Of a DNA stretch of 10,085 bases, positions 1 to 10,085 are shown one piece after another. The notes under the pieces are model-generated. The model was not told the DNA's origin. It saw only the letters and a program-made list of their open reading frames with translations, and ran no database searches. The DNA is from Defluviitaleaceae bacterium (GTDB lineage: Bacteria > Bacillota > Clostridia > Lachnospirales > WQUN01), in the NCBI GenBank assembly GCA_009783395.1, contig WRHA01000345.1, forward strand, positions 1 through 10,085, written 5' to 3'. Each line of letters opens with the position of its first letter. Positions within the stretch are counted from its first letter, which is position 1. A program made the translations under genes and the position numbers.

Positions 1-2
1 AA

Positions 3-1073
3 AACAAAGAAACTACTTACGGCGATTTAGTTGATGCTGTTGCAGGGGCAGGGGTTTGTTCGACAGGGGATTATGCAGATGAATCTATTGAGGAATTTGC
101 CCTTCAATACAAGGAAACGGATTGGGAATTTTTAATCCGTATGGCATCAAGGGCAGGCACCGGTCTTGTCGCCGATTACACATCGGAAAAGCCGAAATTT
201 AAATTTGTTGAAGAAATTGACGAGGGGTCTTTTAACATTGATGATGATAGATTGATTTCTGTGAGCAAAAGCATAGTCGGCGGTAAGGAAAAGATGTCAT
301 ACTTTTTCGCATTGGAAAAAGGCTATGAAAAAGGGGATGATACGCGTGACTGTTTTATTGGCTCGAAATTCAATTACACCGGTGAAAACATAAGCAACAG
401 TAATTTATTATGCAAATCACTTGAAGCAAACATTATTGAAGGTGCAATTATCTACACGGTTGAACTTTCCGACGACTTGTCTGAAGAAGAAATTTTTAAT
501 GATAAAATTTCAGGAGTATCTTTAAAATGTAAGGTATTGGCAAATGACGGAAGCGATGATTCATTGGCAAAGCTAAAAGTAAAAATCGAAGACTTTGAAG
601 ATGAAGATTCACAAAACCCCATTCTTTTTCCTTATGCCACACTTTATGCCGCAAATGACCATGGTGGATGGTTTTTTATGCCGGAGGAAGACGATACGGT
701 GATGTTGTATTTTCCGAATAATAAGGAAAAGAACGCATTTTGCACCTGTTCGCGCAGGGAGAAAGATTTGCCTGATAATATCACACCCGAAACCAAGATA
801 ATCTCTGCGCCAAACGGAAAAATAATAGAAATAAACGAAGATGAAATTTCCATAGCCTCGTCCGAAAATACTTTTATTCGAATGTCTAAGGATTCTGTTG
901 AAATAAGGTCGGACAAGCCGCTGAAAATTGAGACAGGTGATGATCTTACAATGGAATCACGGGGGAAAATAGTGATTCAATCCGAGGCGGGAATTGATTT
1001 GAGCGCGTCGGGTAGTTCAATAAAAATGGCGGCGAATGTTGATTTGGAAGGCTCCAACGTAAAAATATCATAG
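3..1073 (+). CDS. VgrG-like spike protein of a contractile injection system, 5' partial
   Basis: The frame is open to the left edge, so the ATG at 141 is internal. About 356 residues are visible, and comparison with the second copy at 2242 suggests roughly 120 N-terminal residues are missing. The key signature is QYKETDWEFLIRMAS near visible residues 35-49. This is the hub-domain motif shared by VgrG and phage late control gene D / gp27-like proteins, where the Y-x-E-[ST]-D-W-x-F-L core is typical. A middle stretch around the residues GWFFMPEEDDTVMLYFP resembles the OB-fold (gp5-like) domain. The last ~110 residues are short alternating beta repeats ending in NVKIS, as expected for a triple-stranded beta-helix spike. 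It ends without an added toxin domain, so it is not an 'evolved' VgrG. The family trimerises to form the piercing spike at the tip of the tube. It is the first visible gene of a co-directional operon. The family call is firm; the type of injector is inferred. Confidence 0.85.
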   Translation, partial: NKETTYGDLVDAVAGAGVCSTGDYADESIEEFALQYKETDWEFLIRMASRAGTGLVADYTSEKPKFKFVEEIDEGSFNIDDDRLISVSKSIVGGKEKMSYFFALEKGYEKGDDTRDCFIGSKFNYTGENISNSNLLCKSLEANIIEGAIIYTVELSDDLSEEEIFNDKISGVSLKCKVLANDGSDDSLAKLKVKIEDFEDEDSQNPILFPYATLYAANDHGGWFFMPEEDDTVMLYFPNNKEKNAFCTCSRREKDLPDNITPETKIISAPNGKIIEINEDEISIASSENTFIRMSKDSVEIRSDKPLKIETGDDLTMESRGKIVIQSEAGIDLSASGSSIKMAANVDLEGSNVKIS

Positions 1074-1124
1074 TTCAAAAATGTGAAGAATTTCATGAAG
1101 TCATTTGTGACGATGCATGTTGAA

Positions 1125-1130
1125 AAGGAG
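1125..1130 (+). promoter_or_regulatory. Ribosome binding site of the 1142 gene
   Basis: AAGGAG lies 11 bases before the ATG at 1142, in the 68-base gap after the first vgrG-like gene. The gap shows no terminator hairpin, so transcription probably continues from upstream. Confidence 0.6.
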
Positions 1131-1141
1131 CGCGCTTCTTT

Positions 1142-1699
1142 ATGGAAACTCATCAGCATAAAAACGAGCATTTGATAAAGTTTGAAAATGAAGTTGCCCT
1201 GCCTTTTATACATTCTACGGTGAATAATATAAAAGAAACTATTATTGCCGATGAGAAATCCTTTGTGCAAAAATATCAAAATATAGCTGACTCCATTTTT
1301 GATTTGATAAAAAGTTTGAAAACAGAACCTGCTTATATAGGCTTTGTTATGTTGCGTTCAAAATTATTGTATGGCGAGTATTTTTACGATGTGCATTTAT
1401 ACAGCGAAAAGTGGTATCTTGAGAACTATGTAAAAATTGCAGAAACAGATGTGAGTGATTTTTTTTCAGATATTGACACTGTTCGAAACTACTTAGAAAA
1501 AGAAAGACTTAAAATTGCCGGCAAAATTTGTTTGAGCGATATCGACAATATAATAAGTGAAAATTTATTTGAGTTTGCCGAAAATTTTATATATGTACTG
1601 AAAAAAGCCATTACACATGCCGATTTTACTGGAAAAACGAAAATCTACACTAGCGAATTGTATGGGAAGCCCATTCTTATTAACGAGGAGATTGCTTAG
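1142..1699 (+). CDS. Uncharacterised 185-residue protein between two vgrG-like genes
   Basis: I do not recognise a named family. The protein is 185 residues, Lys/Glu/Ile rich, probably soluble and mostly helical. It has no signal peptide, no transmembrane segment and only one cysteine, in the second half. The middle has an aromatic-rich patch (residues LLYGEYFYDVHLYSEKWYLE, about 74-93), followed by a helical region with many acidic residues and a short C-terminal strand-like segment ending ELYGKPILINEEIA. The ATG at 1142 is preceded by AAGGAG, and the stop is one base before the next gene. Its position between two spike genes, in the same operon, suggests a spike-associated role such as an adaptor or chaperone that loads cargo, a small structural part, or an effector. 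The sequence itself shows no catalytic motif. The function is unknown; the gene itself is well supported by start signal, spacing and codon use like its neighbours. Confidence 0.75.
   Translation: METHQHKNEHLIKFENEVALPFIHSTVNNIKETIIADEKSFVQKYQNIADSIFDLIKSLKTEPAYIGFVMLRSKLLYGEYFYDVHLYSEKWYLENYVKIAETDVSDFFSDIDTVRNYLEKERLKIAGKICLSDIDNIISENLFEFAENFIYVLKKAITHADFTGKTKIYTSELYGKPILINEEIA
1685..1690 (+). promoter_or_regulatory. Ribosome binding site that fixes a GTG start at 1701
   Basis: GAGGAG inside the 3' end of the preceding gene lies 10 bases before GTG 1701. The longer frame from ATG 1617 would overlap the preceding gene by 83 bases and has no comparable site, so GTG 1701 is preferred. ATG 1716 is a second possibility, but it lies 25 bases from this site. 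Confidence 0.65.
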
Positions 1700-1700
1700 A

Positions 1701-2258
1701 GTGGAATATTTCAAAATGTATTGTGATGAAAGAATCCGCGAGTCATTTGATTTTAGCATAAGGGAATCCTTATTGTCTAAAAGCACCGGCGTACATGTTG
1801 ATAAGTTTAAGAAATTTACTTTTGTTGATTTTATTGAGAAAAAAATCGGTTTCAATATATACTTTTTTATGTCGCCCGAAATACTTGCGATTTGTAAGCT
1901 GTATGAGCCGGAACTTGCGGCTATTCCGTTTAGTTTTATTGAAAAATCTCCTGTTTTGGAAAAAATACAAAAAGATGCTTTGAACGGAGTAATAAAAGAA
2001 AAGTATGACGATGAAGAACTGGAAAAAATCATGACTAAAACATATTGGAAATTAGAAACTGATTTTATAAAAACAGATAAAAACTTGCACGAATTGAAGC
2101 CCGGGGATTTTCCGGATAAACATTTTTTTATTATGCGCCACGACGAAGTGCTTCATGTAATTGTGTCAATATATTTATGTGAGAGTATTTTAAGGCGTCT
2201 GCCTGTTGGTGTGAAATTTAAAAGGCTTAAAGGAGGCAAGTATGATGAATTCCTATGA
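1701..2258 (+). CDS. Uncharacterised 185-residue protein upstream of the second vgrG-like gene
   Basis: Family not recognised. With the GTG start the protein begins MEYFKMYCDERIRESF and is 185 residues, the same length as the preceding gene product, though the two do not align obviously by eye. Residues about 35-60 carry an aromatic stretch (FKKFTFVDFIEKKIGFNIYF) followed by a run resembling a helical hairpin. The C-terminal third contains HFFIMRHDEVLHVIVSIYLC, a mildly hydrophobic helix that seems too charged for a clear membrane anchor, and then a basic tail (RRLPVGVKFKRLKGGK). The gene starts one base after the previous stop, and its last 17 bases overlap the start of the next vgrG-like gene and also hold that gene's ribosome binding site. 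This arrangement suggests coupled translation and a product needed with the spike. An adaptor, chaperone or baseplate-like role is possible; no enzymatic motif is visible. Confidence 0.72.
   Translation: MEYFKMYCDERIRESFDFSIRESLLSKSTGVHVDKFKKFTFVDFIEKKIGFNIYFFMSPEILAICKLYEPELAAIPFSFIEKSPVLEKIQKDALNGVIKEKYDDEELEKIMTKTYWKLETDFIKTDKNLHELKPGDFPDKHFFIMRHDEVLHVIVSIYLCESILRRLPVGVKFKRLKGGKYDEFL
2231..2236 (+). promoter_or_regulatory. Strong ribosome binding site of the second vgrG-like gene
   Basis: A perfect AGGAGG lies inside the 3' end of the preceding gene. It is 5 bases before ATG 2242 and 8 bases before the adjacent ATG 2245. The latter spacing is closer to the usual optimum, so translation may begin at the second Met; the protein changes by one residue. 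Confidence 0.75.
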
Positions 2259-3630
2259 GATATACGAAGAAATAAAAGTTGAAAACGATTTCATATCACT
2301 TGCAAAAATCTTTGATTTTCGCATTGACGAAAGAGTTTCCGAACATGCGAGAGTCTATGTTTTTGGGCTGTTAGATGATGTTGTTAAGATAAACGATGTA
2401 TTGTCAATTGGCTCTAAGTCAGAATTTAAAATTATTATTAAATATCCTAACAAAGCAGATGGTAAGTTTATTTTTGATGGGATATTAGAAAATTTTGAAA
2501 TATTGCTCAATGCGGGTGAAAAATTTATTAAATTGAATTTAATCAGCCGCTCCTTTGAAGCTGATGGCGAGGAAACTACAAAACGCTATAACAATTCGGA
2601 AAAAGAGTATGTGAATATATTTAACAAAATCGTACGAGAAAAGTATGGCGGCGACCTTTCGGGCGATGCCTTGGGAGACATGAAACAGGAGAATTTAATT
2701 GTTCAATACAGGGAGACTGATTGGCAATTTTTGAAGCGGATCGCCTCCCATGCAAATTTGGCAATAAGTACAAAGCCTCAAGAAAACGGAAAGCTAGAGA
2801 TTCTTGTTGGTTTTCCCGATGGTGATACCAAAAATTTTGACGGACAAGTATTTAAAAAGGATTTTTATTTCAATGCTGAATTGCCTGAATATATCGGGAT
2901 AAGCACGGAGTATTATGATTTATGCGATAAAGTTTCGTTTGAGGGTGATGTTTATTACATTATCAAAAAGATGATAGAATTGCGTGAGGGCGTTCTGTTT
3001 AATACATATACCCTTACACCGTCAGAGGGTTTTAATGTTCCTTATGTGTGCAATCGGAAAATTGCCGGAGCTTCGCTGTCGGGAAAAGTGCTTGGATTTG
3101 ATAAGGACAAACCAAATCATGCAAGCGTTTATTTGGAAGTTGATGAGGAAGAGGCAGAGGATTCTGAACGGTTAGAGATTGTTACTGTGTATTCCGGCGA
3201 AGGCGAGGATATGCACTTCGGAGTGTTTACTATGCCGGAAATCGGGGCTTCGGTAAGTTTGTACTTCCCTGACGATGATGAAGAAAATGCATATATTTCT
3301 TCTTCATTTTTGCATGAAGACTTAAGCCAAGTTTTGGAAAGTCAAAAAGAAAAGTCGTTTTATGCGTTTGGCAATGAGCTAAAAATGAACACAGAAAGTG
3401 TAAGGATGCGTGCAAAGGACGACCGATCGTCTCTCGAGCTTGAAGATGAACAAGGGATTATCATAAAAAGTGATGGTGCATTGTTGATAAAAAGTGCAGA
3501 AATTGAACTTGGCTTAAAGAATAAATTAACAATTTCAGCAGAGAAAGAGCTTGAATTTAAAACTAACGCAAGCAGTGTTTTATTAAACGGAGACATTGAA
3601 ATAAACGCAAGCGGATTGGTTCGTTTATAG
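2242..3630 (+). CDS. VgrG-like spike protein of a contractile injection system, complete
   Basis: This 462-residue protein is a complete VgrG/gpD-like spike without extra domains. Residues 1 to about 260 form the hub region, with the diagnostic motif QYRETDWQFLKRIASHANLA at 155-174. About 275-355 resembles the OB-fold domain (KIAGASLSGKVLGFDKD, then FGVFTMPEIGASVSLYFPDD). About 370-462 is a run of alternating short strands (GIIIKSDGALLIKSAEIELG and similar) expected to wind into the beta-helix needle, ending GLVRL. It is clearly paralogous to the spike at the left edge: both share the Y-[KR]-E-T-D-W-x-F-L motif and the M-P-E-x-[DG] / Y-F-P loop, but the rest has diverged strongly. Family knowledge says three copies form the tip that pierces a target membrane and carries cargo or a PAAR tip. 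The PAAR-like gene follows 21 bases downstream, consistent with direct partnership. The middle has an acidic loop (DEEEAEDSERLE) of unknown meaning. Confidence 0.88.
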   Translation: MMNSYEIYEEIKVENDFISLAKIFDFRIDERVSEHARVYVFGLLDDVVKINDVLSIGSKSEFKIIIKYPNKADGKFIFDGILENFEILLNAGEKFIKLNLISRSFEADGEETTKRYNNSEKEYVNIFNKIVREKYGGDLSGDALGDMKQENLIVQYRETDWQFLKRIASHANLAISTKPQENGKLEILVGFPDGDTKNFDGQVFKKDFYFNAELPEYIGISTEYYDLCDKVSFEGDVYYIIKKMIELREGVLFNTYTLTPSEGFNVPYVCNRKIAGASLSGKVLGFDKDKPNHASVYLEVDEEEAEDSERLEIVTVYSGEGEDMHFGVFTMPEIGASVSLYFPDDDEENAYISSSFLHEDLSQVLESQKEKSFYAFGNELKMNTESVRMRAKDDRSSLELEDEQGIIIKSDGALLIKSAEIELGLKNKLTISAEKELEFKTNASSVLLNGDIEINASGLVRL

Positions 3631-3651
3631 ATTTCAGATGGGGGTTGTCTT

Positions 3652-4062
3652 ATGACATATGTTGTAGACGGGGCGCAGTGCCGTTGCGCAATGGGAAGTA
3701 GCCCTGCAAATTTGGATATACCGGGCTCTTCGGACAGACAAATGGAAAATAAACAAATAGCAAATATGATGGACAGGAAAATTGGCGGATTTGGGACATG
3801 TACAACTCTTACAAGCATGGCAAGCGGCGTTTCGCAACCTTGCCCGCAGGTAGTTCCCATAACCCCGTGGTTAAATGGCTCGACATCATTTTTTGTAAAT
3901 AATTTACCTGTTATAACCGAAAACTCCATCGCTGTATGCCCTGTCGGCGGCGGCGTTGTCACAATATCGGATTGCGGGCAAAAAAAATCAAGCAGTGGTG
4001 CAACAATGAAAACTGCGAATTTGAGTAGCGACGAATTGTTCAACCTGTTGGCAGAAAGTTAG
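3652..4062 (+). CDS. DUF4280 PAAR-like spike-tip protein
   Basis: The 136-residue protein matches the DUF4280 pattern: an N-terminal CRCAMGS segment (Cys10, Cys12), GFGTC (Cys50), QPCPQ (Cys64) followed by PWLNGS, and a late VCPVGGGVVTISDCGQ segment (Cys96, Cys108). DUF4280 proteins are regarded as PAAR-like; PAAR proteins form a small cone that binds the blunt end of the VgrG beta-helix and often coordinates a metal through Cys/His. The conserved core ends at about residue 110. The remaining tail (Lys/Ser/Thr, then a short acidic helix SSDELFNLLAES) is too small for a toxin domain, so it is more likely a structural tip than a fused effector. The ATG is preceded by a GGGGG stretch at about 7 bases. 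It sits directly between the vgrG-like gene and the 626-residue gene. The family call is strong; the metal ligand set is inferred. Confidence 0.88.
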   Translation: MTYVVDGAQCRCAMGSSPANLDIPGSSDRQMENKQIANMMDRKIGGFGTCTTLTSMASGVSQPCPQVVPITPWLNGSTSFFVNNLPVITENSIAVCPVGGGVVTISDCGQKKSSSGATMKTANLSSDELFNLLAES

Positions 4063-4073
4063 GGGAATTTTTA

Positions 4074-5954
4074 ATGGCACAGTGGGAAACTTTGGAGCAA
4101 ATAAATCGCACTATCTTTTTTGATGTCATCAACCCAAACATTGGCAATCTGTCTTCTATCTTAAACTTCAAACAGAAGAACATCGGTCTTGGCGACCAAA
4201 GCGTAAAAGAAATCCACAAGCGGTTGCTTGTGGGCGATTTTAATGAATTTTTGAATAAATTTAAACCGGCTGTTTATTCATACTTTAAAGACAAAAACGG
4301 TGAAATTGGTTTTCTGATAGACTTAAAAGATGTGAGAGCTGTGGGCAAGCAACTGCATGAAATCCCCTTAGACAAAGACTCCGGTTTTCTTCGTTTGTTA
4401 ATTGAAATGATTGAGTCGCGGAGCAAGTCGTCTAATATAGGTTTTCTTAATAAGAATGATGATTTTGGTCATTCATTGTTTGAACATAGTGATATTGACA
4501 ATTTTCGCATTATGCGAAGTAAAGTTCGCAATTTGTTTAAGGCGTATGTAAAAAATTTCTCTGCTGAAATTAAAAATGAAATAGATGATGAATTAAGCAA
4601 GCTGAATGTTTTTTTAAAAAACCATGTTGATTATATTTATCTGATGTTGAATGATATGGAGATGCTGCAAAACAGGACGCAGAAAGAGCTTTTACAGGCT
4701 GATTTTGATGAAAAATTTGCACTTAGATTAGTAAGAAGCCCCGTAAAAGTTCACGATTTTACCGAGTTGGAAAAAGATGTAGAAGCCGAATTTTGCAAGT
4801 ATATCAAGGCATATTACAATGATTACGGCGAATTTTCAGAAAAACTTTTTAGTCCTTCATATACGGAAGAGTTGGTACAAGAATATAGATTGCGATATTC
4901 CAATGCTCTTAAAGAATTTTTGTATACGGTAAAACCTTTGGTGGAAAAAATATTGGGGATATATGCGTTTTTTAAGCATTATAAAACGGGCAAAATGGCA
5001 CCGAAGCTCTTGATTTATAATGCGTCGGTTAAAGACATAACCGAAGAAAACAATGTTGAAAAGTTGAAAATTTTTTTGAAAACCGTTAATACAACCGGCG
5101 AACGCAAGGAAGCAGTATGGCTTGCTGTAGTTTTGAATTATGACACCGCCAACGAATATGAAAACGGCACATTGAATGTAGGTGAATATAAGTATTACGA
5201 CACTGTTAAAGTCTCGGAAATGAATAAACTTTTGGAGGTGACTAATGCACAAGACATCAGCACATTTTTTTCGTTTACTCCAAATTTGCGTAATACATTT
5301 TCATTCTTAAATAAAGACGCAGATTCTGTTGCTGAACGTTTGACGGATTACGAGGATGCTTGTGAAAAAATTGATGATAATAAGCGCGTGTATGCCATAC
5401 CCTGCTTTCCGAATTTGACGCTTATTCCTTATGAAAATGCAACAGTCGAAATGAACCGCAGGAAAATTAATATGTATGGAATTTATATTCCGGCTGCGTT
5501 TTTGGCGGCAGGGCTGTTTGCATCATATCAATGTCCATATTATCTGAAATTGAAACTTAGAAACACGGAGCATGTATTATCAGAAAACTATCCGGGTACA
5601 ATGGTTGATTTTACAGATGACGAGATATCAGGTTTTTTACAGACAGGCTTTGGAAAAGAAATAACGGGTTATTCTGACGCCGTTAAACAGGCTTTAAAAG
5701 GCGCGAATTTTGGCTTTGTGCTGTCAAGCGACTATGATTTTATATCCATATATATTGCAAATAACCTGAAAAAAAAGCCTGTCAACATAAATCATTTGGT
5801 GCTGTATATTCGACGTCTGACTTTAAGCATCTGCAATTCAGAGAGCGAGAAAACTAAGTTTTTGGCCGATTGTAAAAAGAAATGGGAGCAGGATAAAAAG
5901 AATAACATTTTGAACGCGCCGGATTCGTTGATTTTTGCTGACAATGGAAATTGA
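4074..5954 (+). CDS. Uncharacterised 626-residue protein; possible divergent TssC-type sheath protein
   Basis: No confident family match by eye. AGGGG precedes the ATG by 8 bases, and the gene follows the PAAR-like gene after 11 bases. Residues 1 to about 295 are charged and mostly helical, with coiled-coil-like stretches (about 150-210, 225-300). Around 340-400 there is a strand-rich part (VWLAVVLNYDTANEY). Residues about 428-445 read KRVYAIPCFPNLTLIPYE, which resembles the R-[YF]-V-G-L-x-L-P-R-x-x-x-R-x-P-Y segment of TssC sheath proteins. It is followed by INMYGIYIPAAFLAAGLFAS (456-475), comparable with the conserved alanine-rich segment after it in TssC. About 495-580 alternates strands and helices, and the tail is basic (CKKKWEQDKKNN). 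The hydrophobic stretch 460-476 could be mistaken for a membrane helix, but it has only about 17 suitable residues. Alternatives are a large effector delivered by the spike, or a baseplate component. A sheath role is an inference from layout and context only. Confidence 0.5.
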   Translation: MAQWETLEQINRTIFFDVINPNIGNLSSILNFKQKNIGLGDQSVKEIHKRLLVGDFNEFLNKFKPAVYSYFKDKNGEIGFLIDLKDVRAVGKQLHEIPLDKDSGFLRLLIEMIESRSKSSNIGFLNKNDDFGHSLFEHSDIDNFRIMRSKVRNLFKAYVKNFSAEIKNEIDDELSKLNVFLKNHVDYIYLMLNDMEMLQNRTQKELLQADFDEKFALRLVRSPVKVHDFTELEKDVEAEFCKYIKAYYNDYGEFSEKLFSPSYTEELVQEYRLRYSNALKEFLYTVKPLVEKILGIYAFFKHYKTGKMAPKLLIYNASVKDITEENNVEKLKIFLKTVNTTGERKEAVWLAVVLNYDTANEYENGTLNVGEYKYYDTVKVSEMNKLLEVTNAQDISTFFSFTPNLRNTFSFLNKDADSVAERLTDYEDACEKIDDNKRVYAIPCFPNLTLIPYENATVEMNRRKINMYGIYIPAAFLAAGLFASYQCPYYLKLKLRNTEHVLSENYPGTMVDFTDDEISGFLQTGFGKEITGYSDAVKQALKGANFGFVLSSDYDFISIYIANNLKKKPVNINHLVLYIRRLTLSICNSESEKTKFLADCKKKWEQDKKNNILNAPDSLIFADNGN

Positions 5955-6003: not shown

Positions 6004-7251
6004 TTATTTCTTCCCATTAACATAAATCAAAATTTCATTGCAGATGCAGACGAGGATAACGAAGGCTAAAACGATGGGGAAAAGTGCGGCGTAGGTTGTA
6101 AATGTAAGTACCATGCTTGTTAGGAAAAACAGGACAGCGATGCCCGCGCCGAAGGCGGCAAGCTCGTAGCCGACCAGTTTTGAGAGAATTTTTGGAGAAA
6201 ATCGGTTTGATGTGTCGCTTACCAGAGTGGGGAGCAGGGGACCCAGCCCAAAACCTGCTATCGCCATGCCCAAAATGCCGATTGTGCGCGGGTCGATGTT
6301 TGCTAAGTTCATTATGGCGGTTGCAAACCATAGGATTAAAATGCCGGCGGATGCGATTGCGATGCCGCTTCGAATTATGACAGTTTCTGAAATGTACTTT
6401 GCCGACCAGCCGAATATCAGCCGCCCCAAAGTCATGCCAATATAGTAAACGGTGGAAAATATTGCGATATGGGCAATTGAAAGCCCGTATTCGACCATAA
6501 AGACTGTGCTTGTGAAGAATACCACCGTATAGTCTGTGCCGCCCAGGAAAAAGAAGGTTAAAACTTCTATAAATTGGTGGAGCTTTTTTGTCAGGTATCT
6601 TTTCTTTTCTGATTTTTTTTCGGCTATGCCCTCTTCTTCGGTGGCGGTGTCGTCATTTGTCCAGATTTTTTTGTACATACTGAGTATAAGTATTAAACCA
6701 ACAATGCCAACGATAGCCGCGATAACAAGGTAGCCGGCTGTCCAGCTGTATTCGTAAACATAGTCGGTATACGGATTGATTTCTAAAATAAGTAGACGCC
6801 CCATAATCAAGGGGCTTATGGCCGCGCCTGCACCCCAAAAGAAATGCATCCAGTTGTTATGTTTGGCGGTAAAATGCTTTGCCATATAAGCGTTCATGCT
6901 TGAGGCCATTGCTCCGGCACCAAATCCGTAAACAGTTATGGCTACAAGTGCGGCTATAAAATTGGTCGAAAACGCAAGACCGACAAATCCCAGCCCCATT
7001 ATGGCAAGGCCGAGCAGATACACGGTTTGCAATTTCATAAATCTGTTAATCCACGCAAGAATTACCCCGGCGGAGGTATACGTAACCGAATAACCGACAA
7101 GAATGATTCCCGAATGGAATGTAACAAGTCCCATGCCGTGTTGCATGGCATCCCATGAAATGGTAAATGCTCCATCCGGGAAGCCCACAACAAGGTAACT
7201 GAGCAAAATTACCGGCAATAACAATAAACTATGTTTCTGCAATTTTTTCAT
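6004..7251 (-). CDS. Major facilitator superfamily transporter (FucP-like group)
   Basis: The 415-residue protein is almost entirely hydrophobic, with about 12 predicted membrane helices split by a charged central loop (WTNDDTATEEEGIAEKKSEK, about residues 205-225). This is the classic MFS 6+6 design. Features typical of the fucose-permease-like MFS group are a helix-1 motif with PDGAF (about 27-31), NNWMHFFWGAGAAISPLIMG in helix 5, GMTLGRLIFG in the second half, and GFGLGPLLPTLVSD in helix 10. Such proteins usually import sugars or other small solutes by proton symport. The substrate cannot be read from the sequence, and efflux is possible. The ATG at 7251 is chosen because AGGGGAG lies 8 bases upstream and because the reading frame extended further upstream encodes a basic stretch overlapping ileS, unlike an MFS N-terminus. 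It lies 74 bases downstream of ileS on the same strand, so co-transcription is possible but unproven. Confidence 0.85.
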   Translation of the reverse strand: MKKLQKHSLLLLPVILLSYLVVGFPDGAFTISWDAMQHGMGLVTFHSGIILVGYSVTYTSAGVILAWINRFMKLQTVYLLGLAIMGLGFVGLAFSTNFIAALVAITVYGFGAGAMASSMNAYMAKHFTAKHNNWMHFFWGAGAAISPLIMGRLLILEINPYTDYVYEYSWTAGYLVIAAIVGIVGLILILSMYKKIWTNDDTATEEEGIAEKKSEKKRYLTKKLHQFIEVLTFFFLGGTDYTVVFFTSTVFMVEYGLSIAHIAIFSTVYYIGMTLGRLIFGWSAKYISETVIIRSGIAIASAGILILWFATAIMNLANIDPRTIGILGMAIAGFGLGPLLPTLVSDTSNRFSPKILSKLVGYELAAFGAGIAVLFFLTSMVLTFTTYAALFPIVLAFVILVCICNEILIYVNGKK

Positions 7252-7259
7252 AAGAAATG

Positions 7260-7266
7260 CTCCCCT
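7260..7266 (-). promoter_or_regulatory. Ribosome binding site of the transporter gene
   Basis: On the minus strand AGGGGAG is followed after 8 bases by ATG 7251. It is the only good site near the start and rules out the longer in-frame extension. Confidence 0.65.
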
Positions 7267-7325
7267 TTTTTTGCCCCGCAAAACCGTATCCGGCTTCGAG
7301 ACGAACACGTCGACACACGAAGATG

Positions 7326-10085
7326 CTAACGGCGTCCAATGCACGCTTGGCGTGCTTGGCGTGCTACCCACATTTCGATTTTTTTGCCGTTTATATTCCA
7401 CTCTTTTACGAATGCGCCGTCGGGCGGGGCGGTTTGGGTGATGCTTTGCGCCAAAATTTCTGCCGCGATTTCGGCGGAGTTTTTTTCGATTACGGCGGCA
7501 AGTTTTTCTTCGCATCCGCTATATCCTGCAAAAATATGGTCGGTGACTTCGAAGTCGGCCTCGCGGCGCATGTTTTGCCATTTGCTTATTAACTCGCGCA
7601 TGTTGCCTTCTTCGATAAGCTCGGGCGTGAGGGTTGTGTTTAACACGACGGTTACGTCTTTTTCGCTTGCGGCGGCAAAGCCCTCTTTTTGCAGGGGTTC
7701 AATTAGTACATCTTCCATGGTAATTTCGACCGGTGTACCGTCGGTTTCGAATTTGTACCCGCCTGCCTTCAGTGCGTCCATTGCCGCATTTGGCGCGGCG
7801 TTCAGGGCTTGTGTGATTTTTGGAACGAGCTTTCCGTATCGCGGGCCGAGTGTTCGAAGCTGCGGCTTGAAGCGATACGAAGAGTATTCCGAGGCGTCGT
7901 CGATAAAGCGGATTGACTTTACGTTAAGCTCATCCTTGATTATATCCATGAACTTTTCGCCCACCGGTTTTGATACAACGAGCATCTCGGAAAGAGGCTG
8001 GCGTATTTTCAGATTCGCAACATTTCGCGCCGACCGTCCCTGAACAACAACATCCATGACGATGGACATTTGTGTTTCGAGCTCCGTGTTTATCGCGGTT
8101 TCGTCGCTTATGGGGAAATCGCATAAATGCACGCTTTTCGGCGCGGCGGAGTCGAGGTTTGTGACAAGATTTTGATAAATTTGCTCGGTAATGAACGGAA
8201 CGAACGGCGCGGCCAGTTTTATCACGGTAACAAGCGCGTGATGCAGTGTTTTATACGCGCTGATTTTATCCGCCGTCATTTCCGCGCCCCAATAACGCTC
8301 GCGACTGCGGCGCAAATACCAGTTTGACAAATCATCAACGAATTTATCAAGCTCGCGTGTCGGCTCGGTTAGTTCGTATCGCGCAAGCGCGGCGTCTACT
8401 TTTTTCACAAGGCTGTTAAGCCGCGAAAGAAGCCATTTATCCAAAACAGACGGAGCTGTTTCTTCATATTTATATGGGTCAAATTTATCGATCTGTGCGT
8501 AAAGCACGTAAAACGCATACGTATTCCAAAGCGTTCCCATAAATCGGCGTGCGCCTTCTTCGACGGTTTTGTCGCTGTAGCGGAAGTTTAGCCATGGTGA
8601 GCTTCCGGAGATTAAAAACCAGCGAATCGCATCCGCGCCGTGTTTTTCAAGGGCGGACATGGGCTCAACGGCATTGCCTTTCGATTTGCTCATTTTTTGC
8701 CCGTTTTCGTCCAAGCCATGCCCCATTACGATTACGTTTTTGTATGATGATTTGCCAAAAAGCATCGTCGAAATGGAGATTAGCGAGTAAAACCAGCCGC
8801 GTGTTTGGTCGACAGCCTCGGAAATAAAATCCGCCGGGAATAAACTTTCAAATTTTTCGCGATTTTCGAAGGGATAATGCCATTGCGCAAAGGGCATCGC
8901 GCCGGAATCAAACCAGCAGTCAATGACCTCCGGCGTGCGTGACATTTGACCGCCGCATTTATCGCATGGGAATTTTACTGCATCAATGTAGGGCTTGTGC
9001 AGTTCGATATCGGAAGGAGTTTCGGGACTGCGTTCGCGCAGTTCGGCGATGCTTCCTACGCAGTGCAGATGCCCGCAGGCTTCGTTTTCGCAAACCCAAA
9101 TCGGAAGCGGCGTTCCCCAGTACCGCTCTCGCGAGATGCTCCAGTCGATTACATTTTCCAAAAAGTCGCCAAATCGACCTTCTTTCATATGACCGGGCAA
9201 CCAGTTGACCGCGCTGTTGCTTTCTAAAAGTTGTTCGCGCAGGCTGCTTGTGCGGATAAACCATGCGTCGCGGGCGTAGTAGAGTAGGGGAGTATCGCAT
9301 CGCCAGCAAAACGGATAGCTGTGTGTGTAGGATAATTTTCTAAAAAGCTGTCCCCGTTCTTTTAATTCGCGAACGATTAGCGGGTCGGCATCCTTTACAA
9401 ATTTGCCCGCGAAAAGATAGGCTTCGTCGGTGAAATTTCCTTGCGCGTCAACGAATTGCAACAGCGGCATATTATATGCCTTACAAATCCTCGCATCGTC
9501 TTCACCGAATGCCGGTGCGATATGCACAATGCCGGATCCGTCGGTAAGCGTTACATATGCGTCGCAAACGACTTGGCAATAATTTTCGCCAACATCTGCA
9601 TTTTTTGCAAAATCAAAAAGCGGTTCATATTTTTTTCCCTCAAGCGTTTTTCCGGCAAAAGTTTCCAGAATTTTATACCCGCCTTCTTTTTCGCCGAACA
9701 ATTTTTCAGCCAGTGCCTCTGCCAAAATATAGACCCGTCCGTCGTGCGAAATTTTGGCATATTCCTCCTTGGGATTAACGCAAAGCCCGACGTTTGACGG
9801 CAGTGTCCACGGCGTTGTTGTCCATGCGAGATAGAATTCGTTATCGGCTTCGGCGGATTTGAAGCAAACGTAAACAGAATCCTCTTTTACATCCTTGTAC
9901 CCCTGCGCTACTTCGTGGCTTGAAAGCGGCGTTCCGCAACGGGGGCAGTATGGCACAACACGATAACTTTTATAGATGAGATTTTTTTTGAAAATTTCAC
10001 TTAATGCCCACCACACCGACTCGATATAGTCGTTGTGATAAGTGACGTAGGGGTCGTCCATGTCGGCCCAAAAGCCGACGCGCTC
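7326..10085 (-). CDS. ileS: Isoleucyl-tRNA synthetase, 5' partial
   Basis: The enzyme charges tRNA-Ile with isoleucine using ATP, and it edits misactivated valine. The frame is open to the right edge (ERVGFWADMDDPYVTYHNDY), so the Met at 10061 is internal and the N-terminus with the HIGH motif is outside. About 919 residues are visible of the roughly 1040 usual for this long class. Landmarks, in order: first zinc-knuckle half YCPRCGTPLSSHEVAQGYKD; editing-domain threonine-rich peptide AWTTTPWTLPSN; GSGIVHIAPAFGEDDA; second knuckle half FCWRCDTPLLYYARDAW; DWSISRERYWGTPLPIWVC; a further Cys group (CENEACGHLHC, CDKCGG) and DCWFDSGAMPFAQW; the ATP-loop QKMSKSKGNAVEP (KMSKS at 8682-8696); anticodon-binding domain with SNWYLRRSRERYWG; and a C-terminal domain with LKIRQPLSEMLVV. 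This combination fits the eukaryote-like 'type 2' IleS. The natural end is expected around EWNINGKKIEMWV, and the extra ARQARQACIGRR is encoded by the repeat segment. Identity is certain. Confidence 0.97.
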   Translation of the reverse strand, partial: ERVGFWADMDDPYVTYHNDYIESVWWALSEIFKKNLIYKSYRVVPYCPRCGTPLSSHEVAQGYKDVKEDSVYVCFKSAEADNEFYLAWTTTPWTLPSNVGLCVNPKEEYAKISHDGRVYILAEALAEKLFGEKEGGYKILETFAGKTLEGKKYEPLFDFAKNADVGENYCQVVCDAYVTLTDGSGIVHIAPAFGEDDARICKAYNMPLLQFVDAQGNFTDEAYLFAGKFVKDADPLIVRELKERGQLFRKLSYTHSYPFCWRCDTPLLYYARDAWFIRTSSLREQLLESNSAVNWLPGHMKEGRFGDFLENVIDWSISRERYWGTPLPIWVCENEACGHLHCVGSIAELRERSPETPSDIELHKPYIDAVKFPCDKCGGQMSRTPEVIDCWFDSGAMPFAQWHYPFENREKFESLFPADFISEAVDQTRGWFYSLISISTMLFGKSSYKNVIVMGHGLDENGQKMSKSKGNAVEPMSALEKHGADAIRWFLISGSSPWLNFRYSDKTVEEGARRFMGTLWNTYAFYVLYAQIDKFDPYKYEETAPSVLDKWLLSRLNSLVKKVDAALARYELTEPTRELDKFVDDLSNWYLRRSRERYWGAEMTADKISAYKTLHHALVTVIKLAAPFVPFITEQIYQNLVTNLDSAAPKSVHLCDFPISDETAINTELETQMSIVMDVVVQGRSARNVANLKIRQPLSEMLVVSKPVGEKFMDIIKDELNVKSIRFIDDASEYSSYRFKPQLRTLGPRYGKLVPKITQALNAAPNAAMDALKAGGYKFETDGTPVEITMEDVLIEPLQKEGFAAASEKDVTVVLNTTLTPELIEEGNMRELISKWQNMRREADFEVTDHIFAGYSGCEEKLAAVIEKNSAEIAAEILAQSITQTAPPDGAFVKEWNINGKKIEMWVARQARQACIGRR
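7341..7364. repeat. GC-rich tandem/palindromic repeat at the 3' end of ileS
   Basis: On the plus strand the segment reads GCACGC, then TTGGCGTGC twice in exact tandem (7347-7355, 7356-7364). GCACGC (7341-7346) is the inverted complement of GCGTGC in both repeats, giving two alternative stems: one with a 3-base loop, one with a 12-base loop. It is in-frame coding in ileS and produces ARQARQA near the C-terminus. The adjoining intergenic stretch to about 7260 is likewise unusual (CTTCG/CGAAG arms at 7294-7298 and 7317-7321 around ACACGTCGACAC) and has no gene in it. It may be a dispersed repeat element, or part of a terminator without a T-tract. Confidence 0.55.

Follow-up and report, generated by a model that had tools for sequence, protein, structure and literature searches.

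Contractile injection systems (CIS) have been described as type VI secretion systems (T6SS), in which ClpV recycles the sheath and PpkA, PppA and Fha control assembly (PMC10433429, accessible sections), and as archaeal and extracellular CIS (eCIS; accessible sections of PMC11566945, PMC8213781 and PMC12923769). For Gram-positive bacteria, a possible phage-like translocation system was raised in 2016 from the DUF4280 family (PMC5349215), and in 2021 DUF4280 was reported adjacent to Phage_GPD in Firmicutes that lack T6SS and eCIS genes, with speculation on an unknown system (PMC8651086, accessible sections). No Gram-positive sheath, tube or baseplate is named in PMC5349215 or in the accessible sections of PMC8651086. 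Here we analyse a stretch of 10,085 nucleotides (the window; contig WRHA01000345.1, C345) from a Defluviitaleaceae bacterium, whose assembly (GCA_009783395.1) comprises 1.72 Mb in 360 contigs and is 71.5% complete. Six of its genes form the end of a cluster of 20 genes and 24 kb, the probable product of which is a type VI-like contractile injector anchored to the cell, with a proposed threonine-phosphorylation switch and possible DnaJ/Hsp70-like recycling. That the cluster encodes a contractile injector seems to us highly probable, and its anchoring to the cell is considered likely.

The cluster and its structural proteins

A sequence-only reading of the window had described these six plus-strand open reading frames (ORFs), with gaps of 68, 1, -17, 21 and 11 bases, as two VgrG-like spikes, a DUF4280 tip and three unrecognised proteins; the coordinates and gaps are confirmed. 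A search with the last of them, orf626 (4074 to 5954, plus strand), found a second homologue on contig C360, the last 96 bases of which are identical to the first 96 of the window (1 to 96), a stretch found at only those two places. This overlap connects the window with the remaining cluster genes, and the VgrG 1 gene begins on C360 from position 19285 and finishes in the window. Both contigs combined, the cluster covers 20 genes and about 24.1 kb, from position 1497 of the C360 locus (L012) to window position 5954. All 20 are open frames, with VgrG 1 split over the two contigs and gene starts chosen from mechanical ORF lists. orf626 also occurs on a contig of 35,380 bases from a separate collection, which agrees with this linkage.

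On C360, the sheath-family gene orf804 is followed by genes for tube 1, a J-domain protein, a membrane protein at the FHA1 position and two FHA2-family proteins, then for a 1730-residue PP2C/TPR-family protein, o407, o237, an Hsp70-like protein, o250, o146, o453 and tube 2, after which come the six window genes from VgrG 1 to orf626. The labels FHA, PP2C and Hsp70 denote similarity to relatives here, not Pfam matches. The left flank was where tube, sheath and baseplate genes were to be sought, and the tube, sheath-family and baseplate-family genes of C360, together with Bacillota relatives, support the CIS in Bacillota that had been proposed. Such relatives were collected by scanning a single genome for each species, which gave at least 288 sheath-family relatives; the best 80 loci were analysed.

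Hub, spike and tip of a general CIS are recognisable from the sequence. VgrG 1 (3 to 1073, plus strand, 5′ end open in the window) matches Phage_base_V in Pfam (E 3.5e-6) and the VgrG family of the cluster (hhalign, E 3e-40), whose profile in turn matches the T6SS VgrG 8gra (E 3.9e-19). VgrG 2 (2242 to 3630, plus strand, 462 residues) matches NCBIfam vgr_GE at E 1.7e-8, below the model cut-off, and the profile that has it among its members (A10) matches solved VgrG structures; its ATG at 2242 is preceded by AAAGGAGG. The PAAR-like tip (3652 to 4062, plus strand) matches DUF4280 (PF14107, E 1.1e-19), and both spikes and the tip are thereby borne out. Metal-binding DUF4280 proteins have four conserved cysteines (PMC5349215), and the window protein carries this signature: in an alignment of 11 sequences (A12), C12, C50 and C64 are invariant and C96 is conserved in at least 90%. 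A DUF4280 PAAR-like tip with conserved cysteines is shared with IglG of the Francisella T6SS and the DUF4280 proteins.

An Hcp-type inner tube is likewise indicated by profile comparison, with Pfam TssD matches of E 3.3e-5 and 1.3e-3, both under the Pfam cut-off, and a match of the tube profile to Hcp1 at E 5.8e-4. A match of the tube to an NCBIfam xanthine dehydrogenase model was discarded as spurious. For the sheath, the orf626 family profile found at best CdvA in PDB (E 0.31). A structure model based on 15 sequences, including 11 of the 17 homologues found, predicts a contractile sheath fold for orf626, with Streptomyces CIS, PVC, AFP and phage sheaths outscoring T6SS sheaths. If orf626 is a sheath protein, as this model indicates, the earlier remark that the window holds none of the usual tube, baseplate or recycling genes fails. 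Among its paralogues orf626 is short, without the C-terminal region found in the sheath family of 720-800 residues; this form is not a private lesion, since P0002, 40% identical to orf626, also lacks that region. Acetivibrio alkalicellulosi has two tandem sheath-tube pairs (L093 6950-12674), so that sheath duplication is not unique to the window genome either. Two distant sheath relatives (G296:C1:159973-162129 and G413:C1:778806-780971; E about 1e-90, compared with 0 for ten others outside the window genome) may form a second subfamily.

A TssF/gp6-like baseplate fold is predicted for the o424 family from a model of its Aneurinibacillus member, with 44 of the 50 non-redundant copies in the alignment. 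The best Foldseek row was the Streptomyces CIS baseplate; in the VIA list for this model 6n38 was the sole baseplate row, which gave no evidence against the assignment. Profiles of o424, o257 and the Hsp70-like protein found nothing in PDB, and that of o236 found only ECT2 (E 0.36). gp25/TssE (PF04965) was present in 2 of 12 genomes carrying the sheath family (carriers), over the cut-off in one, and in neither G000 nor G059; judged by this model, the gp25/TssE component of a general CIS is missing from most carriers, and a divergent form is possible. PADLOC matched none of ten cluster proteins, and NCBIfam gave pentapeptide models below their cut-offs and DnaK (E 0.0045) for ten cluster proteins. 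The top PDB row of the DcrB-like profile, 7q58 (a designed protein, 23-residue stretch, E 2.4e-5), is spurious, and the next rows are DcrB 13cz (E 4.2e-4) and DUF1795 6e8a (E 8.4e-4); o146 of C360 was rejected as a member of that family (hhalign, only E 0.24). The protein of 430-453 residues beside tube 2 (L012 17381-18742) reached no curated cut-off in Pfam (best E 0.12), matched nothing in NCBIfam or PADLOC and is possibly cargo of the second tube.

The two proteins between the VgrG genes, orf185a (1142 to 1699, plus strand) and orf185b (1701 to 2258, plus strand, GTG start), are likely adaptors, the former for spike or effector. Together with orf626 they make up the three unrecognised proteins, and indeed searches of Pfam, NCBIfam and PHROGs gave them nothing better than E 0.01, and no score above curated cut-offs in Pfam or NCBIfam. 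orf185a aligns with family A9 (hhalign, E 1.1e-10), which follows the first VgrG in relatives and whose Paenibacillus apiarius member has a C-terminal pentapeptide-repeat extension (E 1.4e-21). orf185b aligns with the Imm11-like family A8 (E 5.3e-9), located between the two VgrG genes; Pfam Imm11 matches its Clostridium beijerinckii member at E 6.2e-6 and its P. apiarius member only at 0.06. Two proteins separate the VgrG genes in 8 of 9 relative flanks, the ninth (L125) stopping short of that part. By similarity search orf185a matched 6 of the 8 first proteins and orf185b 1 of the 8 second proteins, the remainder being placed by position and size. Relatives of all six genes occur in the same kind of cluster elsewhere, so their grouping is more than chance.

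The window VgrG 2 lacks a C-terminal extension. It is longer in several relatives (1840 residues in L122, 1036 in L124, 767 in L119 and 698 in L123), which suggests cargo fusions. RHS-like proteins lie downstream in several clusters (L013 3-2132; L019 20744-22162; L093 20453-22174; L125 6344-11506), labelled by similarity to the L013 protein, itself named by eye, and are possibly cargo.

Candidate switch and chaperone genes

As in the Pseudomonas H1-T6SS with PpkA, PppA and Fha1, genes for a kinase, a PP2C phosphatase and FHA proteins adjoin the injector in relatives. The P. apiarius cluster has FHA domains (E 7.8e-12 and 1.2e-6) and a PP2C domain (E 3.4e-14). In 52 of 70 loci the 4.5 kb upstream contain a Ser/Thr kinase gene on the same strand (E 7.8e-32 to 3.5e-37 in the four scanned), and in 46 of the 70 a gene for a vWA protein; the upstream genes were compared in 20 of the 80 loci. 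vWA is fused to PpkA in Pseudomonas H1-T6SS, whereas it is a separate gene here. A further difference is that no kinase match was found in L012, where only 1.5 kb upstream of the sheath is available, or in L013; the rest of the window genome was not searched. Hydrophobic segments were found in FHA1 (76/78), PP2C1 (69/78) and PP2C2 (61/77), compared with 0 or 1 in eight other families measured. By analogy, control logic of the PpkA/PppA/Fha type may operate in this cluster.

Recycling of the sheath by the Hsp70/DnaJ-like pair in place of ClpV is the boldest step of our proposal and is advanced tentatively, for the family, from cluster context, the absence of T6SS models and ClpV scores under the cut-off. 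No ClpV (TIGR03345) over the 884.95-bit cut-off occurs in the 12 carriers, the E. coli control being positive; all 12 carriers gave matches under the cut-off, the best at 843.4 bits, and so did 10 of 14 controls. The J domain is recognised at the sequence level. Of the 81 entries in which its gene is present (79 of the 80 loci plus L012 and L013), 80 keep the HPD motif, the exception being the window genome. In the Hsp70-like family, all 60 long copies contain [DN][FIL]G[TS] at some position and 58 of the 60 contain [DN]xGGGT[TYF]D; the former motif is aligned in 16 loci and altered in L012 and L084. In L013 the Hsp70-like gene is split over two frames (2936-5556, minus strand).

In the machine that we propose, tube and sheath would assemble and contract, FHA1, PP2C1 and PP2C2, with their hydrophobic segments, would keep the baseplate at the membrane or pass signals to it there, and a threonine-phosphorylation switch would set firing. 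orf185a and orf185b would act as spike adaptors and VgrG 2 extensions and RHS proteins as cargo, and Hsp70/DnaJ would reset the sheath, taking the role of ClpV.

Distribution and comparison with described systems

By record title, carriers among the best 80 of at least 288 loci include Paenibacillus, Brevibacillus, Aneurinibacillus, Lysinibacillus, Solibacillus, Cohnella, Clostridium, Acetivibrio, Propionispira, Pelosinus, Lachnospiraceae and others. All are Bacillota, some of them diderm, such as Pelosinus and Propionispira, and on the evidence of these relatives the window host would belong to the Bacillota as well. The family is patchy, occurring in 13 of 398 genomes drawn from the phylum, window genome included (about 3%). 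Among nearer relatives orf626 matched 4 of 61 genomes, counting the window genome and a weak match in G024 (E 5.4e-4) that was dropped, being a 224-residue frame with no other cluster family nearby. DUF4280 was found in 11 of 11 carriers searched and in 0 of 14 controls. The order tube-DnaJ-FHA1-FHA2-PP2C1-PP2C2-o424-o236-Hsp70-like is common to 54 of the 73 loci with 9.9 kb downstream, and 10 more have it with a second tube. L019 lacks FHA1 and PP2C2, and o424, o236 and the Hsp70-like gene are missing within reach in L080, L093 and L096. Of this order, L087 (Candidatus Frackibacter) has the tube alone; it also has the sheath and a VgrG-like frame that is cut off by the end of the locus, but the 10 kb downstream hold no FHA, PP2C or chaperone families and the 4.5 kb upstream gave no kinase match.

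We class the cluster as a CIS by its parts and predicted folds, probably T6SS-like in its working but not a member of the T6SS. In the comparison with T6SS genes suggested by the sequence-only reading, an Hcp-like tube and, by predicted fold only, a TssF-like protein are present; the TssF and VipB models, and ClpV at its cut-off, were not found in 12 carriers. Models for TssC/VipB (PF05943), TssF (PF05947), TssK (PF05936) and TssM/IcmF (PF06761) matched 0 of 12, each with a positive E. coli control (TssJ and TssL were not searched), and because these and ClpV were negative the cluster is not filed as a T6SS. It further differs from T6SS in sheath-family chains of 626-804 residues (typically 720), in DnaJ/Hsp70-like genes within the cluster and in its Bacillota hosts. 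A literature search, with preprints and most subscription papers outside its scope, showed no description of the cluster among the titles and abstract openings listed, nor did the accessible sections of PMC3482391 or PMC9230969 contain one. Papers listed under 'Normocyte-binding protein', a name given to such genes, are almost all on malaria.

Beyond the 20 genes, features named by eye include a GH10-xylanase-like gene at the left end of the cluster (L012 1-630, minus strand) and, beyond its other end, two ordinary minus-strand genes (window 6004-7515 and 7326-10085), one for an MFS-type transporter and one, incomplete, for the isoleucyl-tRNA synthetase already named in the sequence-only reading.

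Alternative readings and significance

An extracellular CIS or tailocin, with particles built in the cytoplasm and released when the cell lyses, is a rather unlikely account of the cluster. The preference of the sheath and baseplate models for Streptomyces CIS and its kin points that way, as do eCIS or eCIS-associated toxins from Paenibacillus and another Firmicute (accessible sections of PMC8213781 and PMC12923769). Yet the cluster differs from PVC, AFP and Streptomyces CIS in that genes for tail fibres, tape measure or lysis are not recognised: Pfam scans of its proteins, run without dedicated models, revealed neither a holin or lysin nor a tail fibre or tape measure, and the AAA+ core gene of eCIS was not recognised either. 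gp25, an eCIS core gene, was not found in 10 of 12 carriers, and membrane segments in three cluster families at most loci, chaperone genes and a kinase-FHA-PP2C set resembling T6SS control are features of the cluster. A prophage tail remnant is very improbable. VgrG, tube and sheath are phage-tail-derived folds, but capsid and terminase, which the sequence-only reading had named as grounds for that view, have no Pfam match among the proteins scanned, 16 from C360 and six from the window. Moreover, 50,697 phage records gave no match for the P. apiarius sheath or orf626, 72,556 plasmid records none for the P. apiarius sheath, and the kinase/FHA/PP2C/chaperone cassette is conserved.

Several observations weigh against the proposed machine, above all its recycling step. 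Hsp70 profile matches of the family are weak (E 0.039 in Pfam, nothing in PDB). In the window genome, HPD is replaced by STD in the J domain and DFGT by YFGA in the Hsp70-like protein, where GGGTTD was not found; and PP2C1 was not found among the C360 ORFs. The joint loss of J-domain and Hsp70-like motifs fits a pair acting together, and also fits loss of that function here. Given these losses and the missing PP2C1, the window copy may be in decay, or its firing may do without recycling by chaperones. That it is degenerating or altered, with structural genes kept and regulatory and chaperone parts inactive, is a less probable reading, and one compatible with the proposed injector in the family at large. 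Long branches, the short sheath paralogue and the PP2C motif AES add to it. The last point is weak, as AES also occurs in L013 and ADG is missing in 26 of 76 PP2C2 copies, and against decay stand the 20 open genes and the short sheath form in P0002.

DUF4280 in Gram-positive bacteria has hinted at an injector since 2016, the machine itself not being identified in PMC5349215 or in the accessible sections of PMC8651086. The cluster supplies candidates for sheath, tube, baseplate, switch and chaperone in cultured Paenibacillus, Brevibacillus and Clostridium beijerinckii, which makes the question of a Gram-positive injector directly testable. It is tempting to speculate that it represents a separate and widespread class of Bacillota injector, armed by kinase, FHA and PP2C, with an outward-facing vWA sensor and a dedicated DnaJ/Hsp70-type reset rather than an AAA+ ATPase. 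If the chaperone reading is true, this would be a second way of recycling a contractile sheath.

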